Positions 39,827 to 52,196 of a DNA stretch of 64,000 nucleotides are shown here, piece after piece. The stretch lies in the NCBI RefSeq assembly GCF_023168145.1, contig NZ_BQYK01000001.1, forward strand, positions 595,343-659,342, in the 5' to 3' direction. Origin of the DNA: Sporosarcina sp. NCCP-2222 (GTDB lineage Bacteria > Bacillota > Bacilli > Bacillales_A > Planococcaceae). The notes under the pieces are model-generated. The model was not told the DNA's origin and did no database searches. It worked only from the letters and a program-made list of their open reading frames with translations. How positions within the stretch are numbered: position 1 is the stretch's first letter; every line of letters starts with the position of its first letter. The position numbers were made by a program, and so were the translations under genes.

Positions 39827-40147
39827 ATGACATTGAAAAAAATCGTTGAAAATGCAGTACAAGCCAAAAAAGAAATCGAAGAGTTAGCAACTCAAGGCTA
39901 CTCACATGATGATATTTACATTTTCGCACATGATAAAAAACGTTCGGACGATATTACAGAAGCGCTCGATACAGAAAAAGTCGGCATGGCAGAGCAAGGC
40001 TTCCTGGACAGCATGAAAAATATGTTCACATCCCGCGGAGATGAGCTGCGCAACAAGATGGAGGCAGCTGGCCTGACTGCAGAAGAAGCTGCAGATGCAG
40101 AGCGTGAATTGGACCACGGGAAACTGGTATTAATTGCAAAAAAATAA
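39827..40147 (+). CDS. General stress protein 17M (YflT family)
   Basis: A 106-residue protein: VENAVQAKKEIEELATQGYSHDDIYIFAHDKKRSDDI is the YflT-like opening. Its C-terminal half is short and acidic (LTAEEAADAERELDHGKLVLIAKK), as in the family. The function is unknown beyond general stress. The ATG at 39827 lies behind TTGGAGGG; the upstream TTG is within that site. It has its own SigB-like promoter and terminator. Confidence 0.85.
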   Translation: MTLKKIVENAVQAKKEIEELATQGYSHDDIYIFAHDKKRSDDITEALDTEKVGMAEQGFLDSMKNMFTSRGDELRNKMEAAGLTAEEAADAERELDHGKLVLIAKK

Positions 40148-41470: not shown

Positions 41471-42933
<1,463 letters not shown>

Positions 42934-44394: not shown

Positions 44395-45474
44395 TTACGG
44401 TTGGACGGGAGACGCGGATGCCAATATTGAAGACAATTCATTCAAAAATACATCCATCTGTTCATCAGTTCCAATCGTGACGCGAATAAAATCGGAAATT
44501 CTTTCGGCATTGAAATGCCGAACAAGGATGCCATGAGCCTTTAATTGTTCGTATATGGCCTGGCCTTCCCATTCATCATACTTAATAAAAACAAAATTAG
44601 CGGCAGACGGAAGTACGGTGCAATTCATTTTTTGCAGTTGCTTAATCACTCGCTCGCGCGTTTTGAGAATTGCCGCTGTCGTATTCCGAAAATACGCAAC
44701 GTCTTCCATAGCGGCCTTTGCTCCTGCCAGCGCCAGGCGGTCGACCGGATACGAATTGAAAGAATCCTTTATGCGAATCAATCCTTCAATCAACTTTTCG
44801 TTCCCGATCGCATAGCCAACCCGCAGACCTGCAAGAGACCTTGATTTTGACATCGTTTGCACGACGAGCAAGTTATCATAGGTTTGAACAAGACAGGCAG
44901 CAGATTTCGGGGCAAAATCAATATACGCTTCGTCGATGATGACGACACGCCCTTCATTCTCCTGCAGAATCCGTTCGATCTCATCCAGTTCCTCATATAG
45001 ACCGGTCGGTGCATTCGGATTTGGCAATATCACGCCTCCTGCTGATTGAAAGAACTGTTCCACTGGCAGTGTAAAATCATTATTCAAGCGGATTTGTTCA
45101 TAGGAAATATCAAAGAGTTTGGTATAAACCGGATAGAAACTATACGTGACATCCGGAAAAAGAATTGGTTTGCCTGGTTCGAAAAAGGCCATAAATGAGA
45201 AAGCAAGCACTTCATCGGAGCCATTGCCGACGAAAATATTTTTTTTCGAAAAGCCAAATGACTCGGCAATCGTTTCCCGCAATTCATCCGCACTAGGACT
45301 AGGATAGCGCTGCAAATTCCGTTGCATTTCCTCCTGGATCGCTTGATTGACAGCTGGACTTGGCGGATACGGATTTTCATTCGTATTCAGCTTAATCAGC
45401 CCTTCCAGTTCCAGCTGTTCTCCTGGTATGTAAGGATCCGTTCGCCGCACCATGGAACTCCACAGTTCAGTCAT
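44395..45474 (-). CDS. hisC: Histidinol-phosphate aminotransferase
   Basis: A 359-residue fold-type I aminotransferase. [12 protein letters not shown] is the classic HisC opening, with the PLP Lys in [19 protein letters not shown] (about residue 215), PNPNAPTG, and Arg in FIRVTIGT. It converts imidazole-acetol phosphate and glutamate to histidinol phosphate. Its start overlaps hisIE by 8 bp. Ending the his operon with hisC differs from B. subtilis, where hisC lies in the trp cluster. No obvious terminator follows. Confidence 0.94.
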
Positions 45475-46105
45475 TGGCTGGCACTTCCTTTTTCAAACGC
45501 CGCTCGCGTAATACGCCAACTACATCGTCCGGCGATACATCCGCTAGTTCCATTAGGACCAGCGCATGGTAGACCAAGTCAGCGAGCTCGTTTTTTAATT
45601 CAGTTGTATCTTTATTTTTAGCTGCAATCACAACTTCCGTCGCTTCTTCCCCAATCTTTTTACATACTTTGTCGATCCCTTCCCGAAATAGATAGGAAGT
45701 ATATGAACCTTCCACTGGATCGTTGCGTCTGCCTTGAATCTCATCCGAGAGCTCGAACAAGATATTGCGTACCTTGGATTCCCCGGAAACGGCGGTGAAA
45801 AAACAAGTTTCTTCACCAGTATGGCAAGCAGGACCCAGTGGCTCGACTTGGATGAGGACGGTATCTTTATCGCAGTCAACGGACAAGCTCTTCACTTGCT
45901 GGCGATTGCCTGATGTAGCCCCTTTATTCCATAGTTCCTGCCTGGATCTGCTGTAAAACCATGTTTCCCCTGTCTCAAGTGTTTGCTGGATTGCTTCTTT
46001 GTTCATATAAGCCAGCATTAACACGTCGCCATTCCTTTGATCTTGCACAATCGCAGGAATCAGACCATCTTCGTCGTATCGCAAACCTTCCAAATTACTC
46101 CGCAT
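45467..46105 (-). CDS. hisI: Bifunctional phosphoribosyl-AMP cyclohydrolase / phosphoribosyl-ATP pyrophosphatase
   Basis: A 212-residue HisIE fusion. The N-terminal cyclohydrolase has metal and substrate motifs [19 protein letters not shown] and [28 protein letters not shown]. The C-terminal half is the MazG-like pyrophosphatase with [16 protein letters not shown] and [13 protein letters not shown]. The ATG at 46105 is preferred to 46114 by AAGGA 8 nt ahead. It overlaps hisF by 11 bp. Confidence 0.94.
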
Positions 46106-46868
46106 AGCAATCATCCTTCACATCAATACCACGGTCTTGCAAAAATCGTTTTAATTCTTTGATACCGATCTCGTCATAGTGGAAGACCGATGCAGCCAGA
46201 GCCGATTCCACACGCCCATTCGTCAACACTTCTAGGAAGTCCTCTTTCGTTCCAGCGCCACCGCTTGCCACGACCGGAATGCTGACGGCTTCGTCCAGCG
46301 CCTTGTATAATTCAATGTCGTAGCCGGCTTTTACGCCATCCTCATCAATACTGTTGACGACTAGTTCGCCTGCTCCCCAGCGCTCCCCTGTCTTTGCCCA
46401 TTCTATAGCATCGATGCCGGTCTCTTCTTTTCCGGCTTTGGCATATACCTTCCACTTTCCGTCGCCAGCCCGTTTCACATCCATCGAAAGCATGATTCGT
46501 TCCGGCCCAAAGCGTTTCACCGCTTCCGGAATTAAATCCGGATCCGTTAATGCCGCGCTGTTTATCGAAACTTTGTCTCCGCCCGCAGCCAGCACATTTT
46601 CGATATCCTTTAACGATTTAATGCCGCCACCGACAATGAAAGGGATCGGCACGACAGCCGCAATTTCTTGGATTAAGTCCAAGAACATTTCCCGTCCGTC
46701 GACAGACGCGGAAATATCATAGAATACGAGTTCATCTGCTCCGTCCGCCACATATTTTTTTGCGCGTTCTAATGGGTCTGCCACTTCTTGTACATCGAGA
46801 AACTTTCGTCCCTTCACAACTTTTCTATTATCAATGTCCATACATGGAATGATTCGTTTCAGCTTCAT
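46095..46868 (-). CDS. hisF: Imidazole glycerol phosphate synthase, cyclase subunit
   Basis: A 257-residue beta/alpha barrel. The catalytic Asp residues are in IIPCMDID (about 11) and [12 protein letters not shown] (about 176). [11 protein letters not shown] and [13 protein letters not shown] are the phosphate-binding turns. HisF needs ammonia from the glutaminase HisH to act on PRFAR, but no hisH lies in this operon. It overlaps hisA by 4 bp. Confidence 0.95.
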
Positions 46869-47581
46869 CTACTAATCGCCTCCTGTAATGAGTTCATGGA
46901 TACCTTGCCTTCGTATAACGCTTTTCCTACGATTGCCCCGTATAACCCCATGTCTGCTAATCTACGAACATCTTCTTCTGTTGAAACACCGCCTGATGCG
47001 ATGATATCTAAATCGGCCATTTGATTGACTAGTTCCAGTTCTTCAAAATTCGGTCCTTGCAGCATGCCATCTTTTAAAATATCTGTGTAAACAACAGTGG
47101 ATACACCAGCCTGCTGAAGCTCCTCAAGTAAATCCACAGCCTTCACAGCGCTCGTTTCCGTCCAACCGTCCGTAGCAACGAATCCATTGCGGGCGTCAAT
47201 TGAAACGGCAATCCTGCCCTCATACAAAGCGGCTGCCTCTCGCAAAAATGTCCGGTTCTCTATGGCGGCGGTTCCGATAATGACCCGGTTAACGCCTCCA
47301 TTCAAATAGGATTTCACTACTTCGAGTGACCTGATGCCGCCTCCTACCTGTACAGGGACACGCACAGCAGCTGCAATATCCTGAATCACTTGCTGATTGA
47401 TAGTTTCACCTGACCTGGCCCCATCCAAATCAACGATATGAATAAATTCAGCGCCTTGCTTTTCAAATTCCTTCGCCATTTCAACAGGCGAATGATGATA
47501 AATTACTTCATCCTCATAATTTCCTTGAAGCAAACGAACACAGTTGCCCCCTCGAATATCAATTGCCGGAAATAAAATCAT
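46865..47581 (-). CDS. hisA: ProFAR isomerase
   Basis: A 238-residue barrel: ILFPAIDIRGGNCVRLLQGNY start with the catalytic Asp at residue 8, IHIVDLDGARSG, QVGGGIRSLE and VVYTDILKDGMLQGPN with the second catalytic Asp. It isomerises ProFAR to PRFAR. It has GAGGGGGG before the ATG and starts 12 bp after hisB ends, the place where hisH normally lies. Confidence 0.95.
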   Translation of the reverse strand: MILFPAIDIRGGNCVRLLQGNYEDEVIYHHSPVEMAKEFEKQGAEFIHIVDLDGARSGETINQQVIQDIAAAVRVPVQVGGGIRSLEVVKSYLNGGVNRVIIGTAAIENRTFLREAAALYEGRIAVSIDARNGFVATDGWTETSAVKAVDLLEELQQAGVSTVVYTDILKDGMLQGPNFEELELVNQMADLDIIASGGVSTEEDVRRLADMGLYGAIVGKALYEGKVSMNSLQEAISR

Positions 47582-47593
47582 GGAGATCCCCCC

Positions 47594-48178
47594 TCATAAT
47601 GTGCCTTTTGTAGAAGGCACCCCGCTAATATGTGGATTAACAGCACTTGCTATGCGAAGCGCCCTGCCAAAGCTCTTGAAAATCGACTCAATTATATGGT
47701 GGCTGTTTTTACCGTAATCCAACTGAATATGCAACGTAATACCGGCATGCCTAGTAAATGCTAGAAAAAACTCCTCCACCAGTTCGGTATCAAAATCACC
47801 CACTTTGTCTTTCAATCCTTCCACACTGTACACGAGGAAGGAACGTCCGCTAATATCGATAGAGACAGTCGACAAGGCTTCGTCCATCGGCGTTGACACA
47901 GTGGCATACCGTTCAATGCCTTCTTTTGTACCAATGCACTTTGCAAACGCCTGCCCAAGTACTATGCCGACATCCTCAGCCGAATGGTGCTGGTCGACTT
48001 CCAGATCACCATCACATTCCACCTTTAGATCAAAACGGCCATGCTTAGTGAATAATGTGAGCATATGATCGAGAAAACCGACACCCGTTTGAATTTCAGT
48101 TCGCCCGGTACCATCCAGGTTGAGTTCCAGCTCCACAGCTGTCTCTGTCGTGTGTCTAGTCAATTGTTCCAATCGCAT
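47594..48178 (-). CDS. hisB: Imidazoleglycerol-phosphate dehydratase
   Basis: A 194-residue monofunctional HisB. Metal-binding histidines are in GFLDHMLTLFTKHG, DQHHSAEDVGI, and the C-terminal NSHHIIESIFKS. It lacks the phosphatase domain of enterobacterial HisB; that step is supplied by hisJ upstream. The ribosome site GGAGGG precedes the ATG, inside the hisD end (23-bp overlap). Confidence 0.95.
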   Translation of the reverse strand: MRLEQLTRHTTETAVELELNLDGTGRTEIQTGVGFLDHMLTLFTKHGRFDLKVECDGDLEVDQHHSAEDVGIVLGQAFAKCIGTKEGIERYATVSTPMDEALSTVSIDISGRSFLVYSVEGLKDKVGDFDTELVEEFFLAFTRHAGITLHIQLDYGKNSHHIIESIFKSFGRALRIASAVNPHISGVPSTKGTL

Positions 48179-49454
48179 TTACTGATCCCTCCCGTACTCG
48201 TATCGATTGGGCGTGGCCTGTCAATCCCTCGACTTCTGCCAGTCGGATGATGTCCTCCGCCACAGCGCCCAACGCTTTCTCTGTATATTGAATGAGACTT
48301 GATTTCTTCACAAAATCATACACACCGAGCGGCGATGAAAAGGCCGCGGTGCCGTTCGTCGGCAATGTATGGTTTGGTCCCGCCATATAATCGCCGAGCG
48401 CTTCCGGCGAATACGGACCGATGAAAACCGCTCCAGCATTCCGTATATTGGGAAGCTGCTCCATCGGGTTTTCTACCAACAGCTGTAAATGTTCCGGTGC
48501 CAAAGTGTTGACGATTTCCCATGCGGCCGTCAGCGTATCCACGACAATAATCCGCCCTTGGCCCTCGACAGACTTTTTGGCAATTTCCCCTCTCTCCATC
48601 TGTCCTAGCAGCTCACTCACTTGCACGGATAACTGTTCGGCAAATGAACGGCTAGTCGTCACACAAACAACTGCTGCCTGTTCATCGTGCTCCGCCTGGG
48701 CGAGCAGATCGGAAGCTGCAAAAACCGGATTGGCAGCTTCATCCGCCACGATGCATAATTCGCTCGGCCCGGCTATCATGTCGATCGCGACATCGCCGAA
48801 CACCCATTTCTTAGCACGGGCGACATAGCTGTTACCTGGTCCAGTAATTTTGGATACCTTCTTTACTGTTTCCGTCCCATAAGCGAATGCGGCGATTGCT
48901 TGGGCTCCTCCCACTTTGTATACTTTATCGACTCCGGCTATCTCCGCTGCCGCCAGAACTGCCGGTTCTACTTTGCCATCCTGCCGGGGAGGCGTCGCCA
49001 TCGCCAGATGCTGGACCCCCGCCAGCTTTGCAGGAATTGCATTCATTAAAACTGTGGATGGATACGCGGCTTTTCCACCCGGTATATAGATTCCGACCCG
49101 TTCTATCGGTGTCACCATCTGGCCAAGCAGCACACCGTCCTGCTGTTGGATGAACCAAGAACGTTCTTTTTGCTCGGCGTGAAATGACTCGATCCGCTGT
49201 TTTGCCTTTTCTAAACTGGTATACACTTCTTGAGGGATAAGAGCCCTCGCCTCCTTGAATTCCTCCGATGACACGACCAACTCTTGAATCTCAGCTCCAT
49301 CGAACTTTTTCGTCATCTCACGGAGCGCATCATCCCCTCTGCGCCTTACATCTTGGATGATTCCGAGTACCGCCTCGTCTATTGAGCTGTCCAAGTTCAA
49401 TGCCTGCCGCTGTTCGCGCTCCGCCCAAAACTGTTGTTCCTCAATAATTCTCAT
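48156..49454 (-). CDS. hisD: Histidinol dehydrogenase
   Basis: A 432-residue Zn enzyme. GGKAAYPSTVLMNAIPAKLAG, the NAD region KVYKVGGAQAIAAFAYGTETV and VARAKKWVFGDVAIDMIAGPSE are conserved; the zinc ligands and catalytic Glu/His follow in LLAQAEHDEQA and NTLAPEHLQL. It oxidises histidinol to histidine in two NAD-linked steps. The start overlaps hisG by four bases (ATGA). Confidence 0.95.
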   Translation of the reverse strand: MRIIEEQQFWAEREQRQALNLDSSIDEAVLGIIQDVRRRGDDALREMTKKFDGAEIQELVVSSEEFKEARALIPQEVYTSLEKAKQRIESFHAEQKERSWFIQQQDGVLLGQMVTPIERVGIYIPGGKAAYPSTVLMNAIPAKLAGVQHLAMATPPRQDGKVEPAVLAAAEIAGVDKVYKVGGAQAIAAFAYGTETVKKVSKITGPGNSYVARAKKWVFGDVAIDMIAGPSELCIVADEAANPVFAASDLLAQAEHDEQAAVVCVTTSRSFAEQLSVQVSELLGQMERGEIAKKSVEGQGRIIVVDTLTAAWEIVNTLAPEHLQLLVENPMEQLPNIRNAGAVFIGPYSPEALGDYMAGPNHTLPTNGTAAFSSPLGVYDFVKKSSLIQYTEKALGAVAEDIIRLAEVEGLTGHAQSIRVREGSVNAIGTID

Positions 49455-50086
49455 GATTGTAATCTCACCTCGGCATTCATAGAATCGATAAATTGCCGTA
49501 TGCTAGCTGTTTTAATGGCATAACTCGCTTTATTCACAATCAGCCGGGCACTAATGTCGGCGATTTCCTCCAAGATGACCAGCCCATTCTCCTTGAGCGT
49601 CGTGCCGGTTTCCACAATATCGACAATGACATCTGCCAAGCCAATCAAGGGGGCCAATTCAATTGATCCATTCAGTTTAATGATGTCTGTACGAAAACCC
49701 TTTTGATCAAAATAGGCTTTCGCCACATTCGGGTACTTGGTTGCCACTGTCATAGCGGAGCTGTTTCGCAACACGGTCTGCGGAAATCCCGCGACTGTGA
49801 TTTTACATTTACCTATTCCTAAATCCGCCAATTCATAGACATTCGGAGCGTCCTCCATGATAATGTCTTTGCCGACGATTCCAATATCGGCAGCACCTTT
49901 CTCCACATATGTCGGCACGTCCACCGCCTTCACTTGCAGCAGCCTAATCGTCTCCGTATCATCGGTAAATACAAGTTTTCTGCTGTTTTCTGGATGGACG
50001 GAAAACCGAATGCCCATGCGAGACAGAATCTCGAGTGCGCGATTGGTCGTTCTGCCTTTCGCCATGGCGATTGTCAATGTTTCCAT
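49451..50086 (-). CDS. hisG: ATP phosphoribosyltransferase, short form
   Basis: A 211-residue short-form HisG: AMAKGR and the PRPP-binding VDIVETGTTLKENGL near residue 165. Short HisG lacks the ATP/histidine regulatory domain and works as an octamer with HisZ, encoded just upstream. METLTIAMAKGR at 50086 is taken as the start; an ATG three codons earlier overlaps the HisZ stop. Confidence 0.94.
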   Translation of the reverse strand: METLTIAMAKGRTTNRALEILSRMGIRFSVHPENSRKLVFTDDTETIRLLQVKAVDVPTYVEKGAADIGIVGKDIIMEDAPNVYELADLGIGKCKITVAGFPQTVLRNSSAMTVATKYPNVAKAYFDQKGFRTDIIKLNGSIELAPLIGLADVIVDIVETGTTLKENGLVILEEIADISARLIVNKASYAIKTASIRQFIDSMNAEVRLQS

Positions 50087-50091
50087 TCGTT

Positions 50092-51294
50092 TCATGCCTC
50101 CTTTTCAAAGAACATTCCGACATCAGTCACTGTAAGAAATTGATAGCTCTCCTCTTGTGTGAGAACCGTTTTTTCTTCTCTTTTCAATAGAACCGTATAG
50201 GCTTTCAAATCATTGAAAGCTTCGTTTTGTAGCTGGCTCATCACGACTTGATATTGTTCTTCCCTCAATTGTTCAGCAAGAAGGATTGCCTCCTCGAGCT
50301 CAGTATTGCTGTAATAAATACAGACACTTTGACTTGCCGGAATTTCTGTCATCCTGCCATCAAGTGCATCGACAATCGGCTCTATCTCAATCGCAAAACC
50401 CATTCCAGGGAGATCAGCTTCAAATGTATCCCCAAGCTTGTCATAGCGCCCTCCCATCACAACCGGCCTCCCAAGTCCTTCTACATAGCCTTGGAAAATG
50501 ATGCCCGAATAGTAATCCATGTTGTTCAGCAAGCCGAAATCGATAATGATTTCCTCTTTGCAGCCATAAATCTCAAGCAGGCGGCAAACCTCCTGGATAT
50601 ACTCCAAGATCCCATCCATTGAGGAGTCCAATCGGATGCCAGCCATTTTGGCAGCGACAACTTCCGGTTTTCCATATACTTGCGTAATTGTTTCGACTGC
50701 CGCAGCCAACTGTCCATCAATCTTCGCTTCACGAAGCAACCCTTGCAGCTCTGCCACATTTTTTGACACGATCAGCTGACTCAGCTGGATGTTCTGGCGC
50801 GTATCCATCCCCATCTGCTGAATTAGGCTGTCGAGCAAGGCGGGATACCCTATTTCGATTTTGATTTCACCAAGCTCAAGATCCTTCAATGTCCGGACAG
50901 CTAATGCAATGGTCTCCGCATCCGCCTCAGGTGATCGGCAACCAAAGAATTCGATGCCTGCTTGCGTATGCTCGATGGGACTCAAATCGGTACCTGTTTG
51001 GCGAAACACTTCTTGTATGTAATAATAACGCCGCTCGCTTGTCAGCCGTCCGTACACATGAGACAATTCCTTAGTAATCGGTATCGTCACGTCCGGGCGC
51101 AAAACTAGTACATCACCAGTCGGATCGATCACTTTGATCATTTCACGCCGCGGAATAGAGCTGTCAATTTCGGAATAAAGATCATATGCTTCAAACGCAG
51201 GGGTTCGGACTTTGGAATACCCGTAAGTTTCAAACCGACGGGATACCTTCCCCACTACGTGTTCGTACACTTTCGAGCGCTCAAGAAAATTCAT
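50092..51294 (-). CDS. hisZ: ATP phosphoribosyltransferase regulatory subunit
   Basis: A 400-residue HisRS-like protein without the tRNA-binding domain. Class II motif 2 is seen in RRYYYIQEVFRQTG and motif 3 in VVMGGRYDKLGDTF. HisZ confers histidine feedback on HisG. It is the first gene of the operon, with a weak ribosome region (AAGG), and diverges from hisJ across about 107 bp that must contain both promoters. Confidence 0.93.
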   Translation of the reverse strand: MNFLERSKVYEHVVGKVSRRFETYGYSKVRTPAFEAYDLYSEIDSSIPRREMIKVIDPTGDVLVLRPDVTIPITKELSHVYGRLTSERRYYYIQEVFRQTGTDLSPIEHTQAGIEFFGCRSPEADAETIALAVRTLKDLELGEIKIEIGYPALLDSLIQQMGMDTRQNIQLSQLIVSKNVAELQGLLREAKIDGQLAAAVETITQVYGKPEVVAAKMAGIRLDSSMDGILEYIQEVCRLLEIYGCKEEIIIDFGLLNNMDYYSGIIFQGYVEGLGRPVVMGGRYDKLGDTFEADLPGMGFAIEIEPIVDALDGRMTEIPASQSVCIYYSNTELEEAILLAEQLREEQYQVVMSQLQNEAFNDLKAYTVLLKREEKTVLTQEESYQFLTVTDVGMFFEKEA

Positions 51295-51401
51295 GCCGTT
51301 TCACAACCTTTTCTTTCTTTATCGCTTTACCACATTAAAGTTATAACGTACTATAAAACTATATGTATCATTTGTCAACTGATAGGAGGAAATTTTTAAA
51401 A

Positions 51402-52196
51402 ATGTTTGATTATCATATGCACAGTTCATTTTCAGGAGATTGCAATATTGATATGGAGGAGATGGTTAAAGGAGCGATTCGGCAAGGCTTGACTGAAATC
51501 TGTTTCACCGATCATGTCGACTATGATTATCCCGACGATTCAATCGTCTTTGATTTTGATAAGAAGTTGTACGCCAGCCGAATCCAACAGCTGCGAGAAA
51601 AATACGAAGGTCAAATTCGCATTAAAAAAGGGGTGGAGATCGGTGTCCAGCCTCACATTTTGCAACAATGCGGGGAGATGGTGAAGGAAGAAGGTTTTGA
51701 TTTCGTCATTTGTTCATTACATACTGTGGCAAGAAAAGGATTGCACTATGGGGAGTTATTCGAAGGCCGTTCAGTGGATGAAGCGTCCGCCATTTATTAT
51801 GAAGAGCTGCTGCATTGCGTGAAGCATTTCGATTCGTACTCCCTTTTAGGACATATCGATCTCATCAAGCGATATGCGAAAGAAAAGGCTTCCTCTGACT
51901 TCCATGATGTGCTGCGTCAAATTTTCGAAGTGATTATTCCTGCGGGAAAAGGAATTGAACTGAATACGTCTGGCGTCCGCTATGGGCTCGACTGCGGATT
52001 GCCAAGCGAAGATGTTTTGAAATTATATAAGCAATGCGGGGGCGAAATCATCACATTAGGTTCGGATGCCCATAAACCTGAAGATATTGCATTTCAATTC
52101 AAAGAGTCCGCTGATTTGCTGCGATCGATTGGGTTCCGCTATTTGACAACGTTTGAACAGATGAAACCGCAGTTTCATTCGATTGATCAATTGTAA
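51402..52196 (+). CDS. hisJ: Histidinol-phosphatase (PHP family)
   Basis: A 264-residue PHP-domain phosphatase. The metal-binding DYHMHSSFS opening, ICFTDHVDYD, ICSLHTV, LGHIDLIKRY and LGSDAHKPED complete the trinuclear site. It removes the phosphate from histidinol phosphate, the step missing from the monofunctional HisB. The ATG at 51402 follows AGGAGG by 12 nt; the earlier in-frame ATG at 51363 lacks a site. It diverges from the his operon. Confidence 0.9.
   Translation: MFDYHMHSSFSGDCNIDMEEMVKGAIRQGLTEICFTDHVDYDYPDDSIVFDFDKKLYASRIQQLREKYEGQIRIKKGVEIGVQPHILQQCGEMVKEEGFDFVICSLHTVARKGLHYGELFEGRSVDEASAIYYEELLHCVKHFDSYSLLGHIDLIKRYAKEKASSDFHDVLRQIFEVIIPAGKGIELNTSGVRYGLDCGLPSEDVLKLYKQCGGEIITLGSDAHKPEDIAFQFKESADLLRSIGFRYLTTFEQMKPQFHSIDQL

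Follow-up and report, generated by a model that had tools for sequence, protein, structure and literature searches.

Histidine synthesis in Sporosarcina sp. NCCP-2222 is very probably complete, with a partnerless HisF that takes up free NH3 and with the loss of hisH as one of many such losses throughout the genus. Judged from sequence, (i) HisH is missing, the HisF residues assigned to the cyclase are kept and those assigned to acting with HisH are lost, and (ii) other amidotransferases are missing or have no predicted nucleophile, while a putative urease gene cluster is present in this genome. That HisF turns over NH3 in the cell, the sequence in which the events took place and the abundance of ammonia as their cause are inferred without an assay, and are put forward as the most likely account. 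HisF would take NH3 from the cytoplasm with no glutaminase partner, and the ammonia of this species would be supplied at least partly by urease. Plentiful ammonia is inferred to have allowed the amidotransferase losses, and the damaged amidotransferases are presumed to use NH3 now. For the genus, the best explanation is that, among the glutamine amidotransferase functions considered, the majority have been lost or damaged and that these bacteria lean on ammonia.

The his Operon and Its hisB-hisA Junction

The his genes lie on the minus strand of the window (the whole 64,000-nucleotide stretch of DNA that was analysed) in the order hisZ-hisG-hisD-hisB-hisA-hisF-hisIE-hisC, with hisJ divergent (Table 1). 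The preliminary description had reported a spacing of just 12 bp between hisB and hisA and a good ribosome site at their junction, and this is borne out, the 12-bp spacer being a portion of the ribosome-site stretch GAGGGGGGATCTCC. Its statement that the other steps are present, including hisJ and a fused hisIE, is upheld by NCBIfam models, which recognise these genes with HisZ only slightly short of its curated cut-off (265.4 vs 271.65 bits) and the HisF of the window at 313.6 bits (TIGR00735, cut-off 294.55). The placing of hisH at this junction as the normal state is likewise supported, since hisH adjoins hisB, hisA or hisF in 36 of 36 control loci (hisF-linked or hisH-linked loci of other genera). 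No Rfam match to an RNA leader reaches the gathering score between positions 40000 and 56000 of the window. Near the operon is a tyrosine phenol-lyase, an ammonia-releasing enzyme (window 41533-42933, plus strand; 831.7 bits vs a cut-off of 720.7).

Table 1. Positions in the window of the his genes and of the hisB-hisA junction.
Feature	Position	Strand	Remarks
hisC	44395..45474	-	NCBIfam model
hisIE fusion	45467..46114	-	NCBIfam model
hisF	46095..46868	-	Q123 = Glu; catalytic D11, K19, D130 kept
hisA	46865..47581	-	NCBIfam model
hisB-hisA junction	47582..47593	-	12 bp; site of hisH in relatives
hisB	47594..48178	-	NCBIfam model
hisD	48156..49454	-	NCBIfam model
hisG	49451..50095	-	NCBIfam model
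hisZ	50092..51294	-	NCBIfam model, slightly below curated cut-off
hisJ-family histidinol phosphatase	51363..52196	+ (divergent)	NCBIfam model

HisF Residues with and without a HisH Partner

The reference set of HisF proteins with a HisH partner (n = 45) includes 36 sequences from 34 genomes of the family, four paralogs and five sequences of Lentilactobacillus/Peregrinibacteria, among which 60 positions are invariant. Like the HisF of the Thermotoga maritima-type HisF-HisH imidazole glycerol phosphate synthase, the Sporosarcina proteins belong to the HisF fold family and retain the catalytic D11, K19 and D130 plus E46 and K99 (21 of 21). By contrast, they have no HisH, Q123 and C124 are replaced, and D98 or R5 is replaced in part of the genus. 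Q123, kept in all 45 HisH-partnered proteins, is lost from each of the 21 Sporosarcina HisFs and from each of the five HisFs of a second hisH-less group (genus g4, see below). Only L2, Q123 and C124 are altered throughout both hisH-less groups, with one of the 21 Sporosarcina sequences having a gap at L2. D98 is changed to Asn in 8/21 Sporosarcina and to Ser in 5/5 g4 proteins, and R5 to Lys in 8/21 and 5/5, respectively; both residues are kept in the window. For T. maritima, PMC9052757 describes recognition of the HisH-bound glutamine by fQ123, and PMC8115485 a shift of fD98 to the HisH active site upon activation.

The two hisH-less groups have lost the same predicted HisH contacts, and the putative cyclase site is intact in both. 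Sporosarcina and g4 do not group together in the HisF tree (midpoint root, no support values); thus, the losses are taken as independent. By score and predicted catalytic residues, the HisF of Sporosarcina fits normally into the HisF family, and its turnover of PrFAR with ammonia is inferred. The enzyme as a whole fails the definition of a glutamine-dependent HisFH complex, with no HisH and with Q123 lost. The idea that a low HisF score signals the loss of HisH was considered and rejected, as GltD-linked HisF paralogs score equally low.

Glutamine Amidotransferases of the NCCP-2222 Genome

The glutaminase domain is kept but the nucleophile cysteine is gone from four proteins of this genome: CarA (Gly), GuaA (Ser), PyrG (Gly) and PurQ (Gly, with the catalytic histidine replaced by Leu). 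An AsnB-like protein starts with Met-Thr instead of Met-Cys and has, thus, lost Cys1. The frames after a TrpE-like one are trpD-trpC-trpF-like, with no intervening trpG, and those after a PabB-like one are pabC and a folP-like frame, with no intervening pabA. TrpE and PabB are distinguished here by their neighbours, as neither chorismate-binding frame reaches its curated cut-off, and among the neighbours only pabC passes its own model. The search for GOGAT yielded no PF00310 match in this genome. GlmS and PurF are kept, both with their cysteine, and a canonical glutamine synthetase is accompanied by a second GlnA-like protein; thus, glutamine is still made and used here. Short tandem-like repeats are observed between the trpE-like and trpD-like frames (L215:2200-2520) and after pyrG (L003:2317-2907).

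The genome has five PF00117 matches: CarA, GuaA, PyrG, a PuuD-like hydrolase and a PfpI-like protein. The PuuD-like hydrolase has an intact cysteine motif and a PdxT-type glutaminase is not excluded, such that one of these, or an unknown glutaminase of the cell, could dock to HisF and feed it. This is unlikely, however, as HisF has lost residues used for contact with HisH and the glutamine there, CarA, GuaA, PyrG and PurQ have no nucleophile, and the PuuD-like protein reaches only 125 bits against the gamma-glutamyl-GABA hydrolase cut-off of 266, while the HisH model gives it no more than 18.8 bits. The preliminary description had left three options, namely hisH elsewhere in the genome, a HisF that works with ammonia, or service by another amidotransferase. 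The ammonia-fed HisF is the best supported of these and the first is contradicted by the searches described below; the last, while a PdxT-like protein is not excluded, is not supported because HisF has lost residues with which it would act on a partner glutaminase.

The one missing gene could also mark a dead pathway in a decaying his operon, but this is very doubtful given that the remaining his genes are open and have model scores near or above the cut-offs, that the catalytic HisF residues are unchanged in all 21 Sporosarcina proteins, and that a relative, S. pasteurii, grew without histidine, as stated in PMC7775470.

Search for hisH in Genome, Genus and Family

The genome searched measures 4.02 Mb in 24 contigs and is 99.95% complete, with the window on contig 1. 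A whole-genome profile search for HisH (TIGR01855) gave a best score of 18.8 bits against a cut-off of 105.4; of 14 control genomes searched in the same way, 13 pass. Across the genus, hisH is over the cut-off in none of 68 Sporosarcina genomes, single-contig genomes included. In a survey of 151 genomes of the family, hisF is over the cut-off in 147 and hisH in 127, the latter number overstating the HisH of histidine synthesis, as up to 19 in genera g2 and g4 may be paralogs. The 17 Sporosarcina genomes of this survey all have hisF over the cut-off, and none has hisH. Outside Sporosarcina, hisH is below the cut-off in seven genomes of the survey; hisF is also below it in four of these (G017, G050, G061 and G107), and hisF without hisH is found in G008 and G027 (genus g8) and in G041 (genus g4).

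The hisB-hisA-hisF arrangement without hisH is found by BLAST in 20 further Sporosarcina loci (5 named and 15 unnamed). Measured up to the start of the HisA of the window, the hisB-hisA gap spans 11 to 14 bp in the five named loci and 13 to 301 bp in the other fifteen. Among named relatives, the closest by HisF are Sporosarcina cyprini, with 95% identity, and a strain under the name S. luteola, with 93%. No relic of hisH is detected in hisB-hisA gaps of at least 45 bases (12 of Sporosarcina and 2 of g4; best E 0.096), with gaps below 45 bases left out of the search. Two matches with E values of 0.036 and 0.083 are discounted, as they lie in the entry for the window, which included padding with hisA sequence.

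Loss of hisH in, or before, the common ancestor of Sporosarcina is the best explanation of these findings. The preliminary description had argued against a recent deletion, which fits a genus-wide loss with no relic in the 12 Sporosarcina gaps of at least 45 bases, and had pointed to the junction in related genera, where the comparison places Sporosarcina loci without hisH beside control genera with it. Its alternative of a simple relocation of hisH is virtually ruled out, as small gaps do exist in a 24-contig assembly but the whole-genome search is negative at 99.95% completeness and so are all 68 genomes of the genus, those in a single contig among them.

A Second hisH-less Group and the HisH/HisF Paralogs

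A second group of hisH-less his operons is observed in genus g4 (L235-L239, from G041, G057, G135, G117 and G129). Like those of Sporosarcina, the g4 operons have hisB-hisA-hisF with no hisH between, and Q123 and D98 of HisF are lost in 5/5. Unlike Sporosarcina, the CarA, GuaA, PyrG and PurQ of G041 keep their cysteine, and in all but one of the five genomes a HisH elsewhere in the genome is over the cut-off. Thus, as G041 combines a hisH-less operon with intact CarA, GuaA, PyrG and PurQ, the loss of hisH does not require the wider change. The HisH found elsewhere in g4 adjoins a HisF paralog in both cases examined (L027 and L031). Paired HisH and HisF paralogs adjoin a GltD-like oxidoreductase gene at L027, L030, L031 and L033 (genera g2 and g4), and no hisA or hisB is found beside these within 3.6 kb, the neighbourhood having been Pfam-checked for L027 only.

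Amidotransferase Losses across Sporosarcina

The comparison across the genus is based on CarA, GuaA and PyrG from 21 genomes and PurQ from 18 of the 68, which were chosen by hand and not at random; a CarA-sized match occurs in at least 46 of the 68 genomes among the matches listed. In the alignment, the CarA nucleophile is Gly in 21/21 Sporosarcina and Cys in 9/9 controls of other genera, and the catalytic His of CarA is also lost in 3/21. The PyrG nucleophile is replaced by Gly (10), Ser (9) or Ala (2) in the 21 Sporosarcina proteins and is Cys in all six controls. GuaA is less uniform, with Ser in 13, Ala in 1 and Cys in 7 of the 21 (controls, Cys in 5/5). PurQ carries Gly with the His-to-Leu change in 16 of 18 and is intact in G116 and G156, as it is in both controls. 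Genus g8 shares the nucleophile losses of CarA (2/2), PyrG (2/2), GuaA (2/2) and PurQ (1/1).

All 23 control proteins of the TrpG/PabA type that were examined keep their cysteine. Among the matches listed, which extend to 112 bits, a TrpG/PabA-sized one is present in 2 of 68 genus genomes (G167 and G178). Of the 68, G167 and G178 are also the two with a GOGAT glutaminase domain. In these two genomes, GOGAT is observed together with a TrpG/PabA-type gene that adjoins a TrpE-like one (L210, L211, L219 and L220), either regained or never lost. Glutamine synthetase gives no match in 27 of the 68 genomes. In G110 it is observed as fragments only, one with a stop (G110:C1:1289519-1289887), as if decaying. 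With PF13522, searched in 28 Sporosarcina genomes, 11 (e.g., G002, G021 and G039) have a single PurF-sized match, and no GlmS or AsnB amidotransferase domain was found in these 11. The cysteine is kept in every PurF (18/18) and GlmS (7/7, this genome included) of Sporosarcina examined, while Cys1 of the AsnB-like protein is lost in five of nine and kept in G116, G167, G178 and G196. The predicted outcome is a strong shift away from glutamine that is uneven across species, not an abolition.

Single amidotransferases that use ammonia are known, e.g., the mitochondrial carbamoyl phosphate synthetase I of mammals, in which the glutaminase domain has no cysteine and free ammonia is the nitrogen source. 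The Sporosarcina proteins resemble this enzyme in retaining a glutaminase domain without its cysteine; they differ in that several enzymes of one genus are concerned instead of one, and in that their use of ammonia is inferred. No account of a concerted loss of amidotransferases in one genus was found in the open-licence PMC literature, nor anything there on Sporosarcina and amidotransferases. The losses suggest that the genus builds much of itself from free ammonia.

Biosynthesis is generally taken to follow the rule that ammonia is channelled from glutamine. If a genus has abandoned this in many pathways at once, it would be a natural experiment on the purpose of the tunnel, and offers for study a partnerless HisF and glutaminase subunits without a nucleophile.

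Ammonia Supply and Sporosarcina pasteurii

A wider reading, somewhat favored on present evidence, is that the genus has largely dropped glutamine as a nitrogen donor and makes histidine, tryptophan, folate, pyrimidines and purines from free ammonia, which would explain the needs of S. pasteurii. It would entail that nearly all genomes lack HisH, TrpG/PabA and GOGAT and that glutamine synthetase is being lost, while CarA, PyrG, PurQ and, in many cases, GuaA and AsnB persist in a disabled form. If true, this would provide a molecular reason why S. pasteurii needs ammonia or urea plus alkaline conditions; the ammonia requirement of this urea-splitting species could be explained, and the cause is testable. 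S. pasteurii is used for calcite precipitation, and the reading predicts what must be supplied in its media.

A partly masked gene for the urease alpha subunit is present in the NCCP-2222 genome, and the four frames after it resemble, by eye, ureE, ureF, ureG and ureD. Urease is over the cut-off in 53 of the 68 genus genomes and below it in 15. Isolated T. maritima HisF is active with ammonium salts at basic pH, as described in PMC11350729, and an activity of this kind is proposed to occur in the cell here. For S. pasteurii, PMC7775470 relays from other work that ammonia is required, with urea as a possible substitute, and that GS and GOGAT activities are missing from this species; it further reports that strain DSM33 grew without the amino acid group containing histidine and glutamine, and that leaving out amino acid groups slowed its growth.

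A genome of the set, G021, encodes a UreC identical to the UreC of PDB 5a6t. This structure is presumably the urease of S. pasteurii. G021 has no HisH, GlnA or GOGAT match, and the absence of the latter two accords with the S. pasteurii biochemistry relayed in PMC7775470. The CarA, PyrG and PurQ of G021 are without the nucleophile, and its GuaA keeps it.
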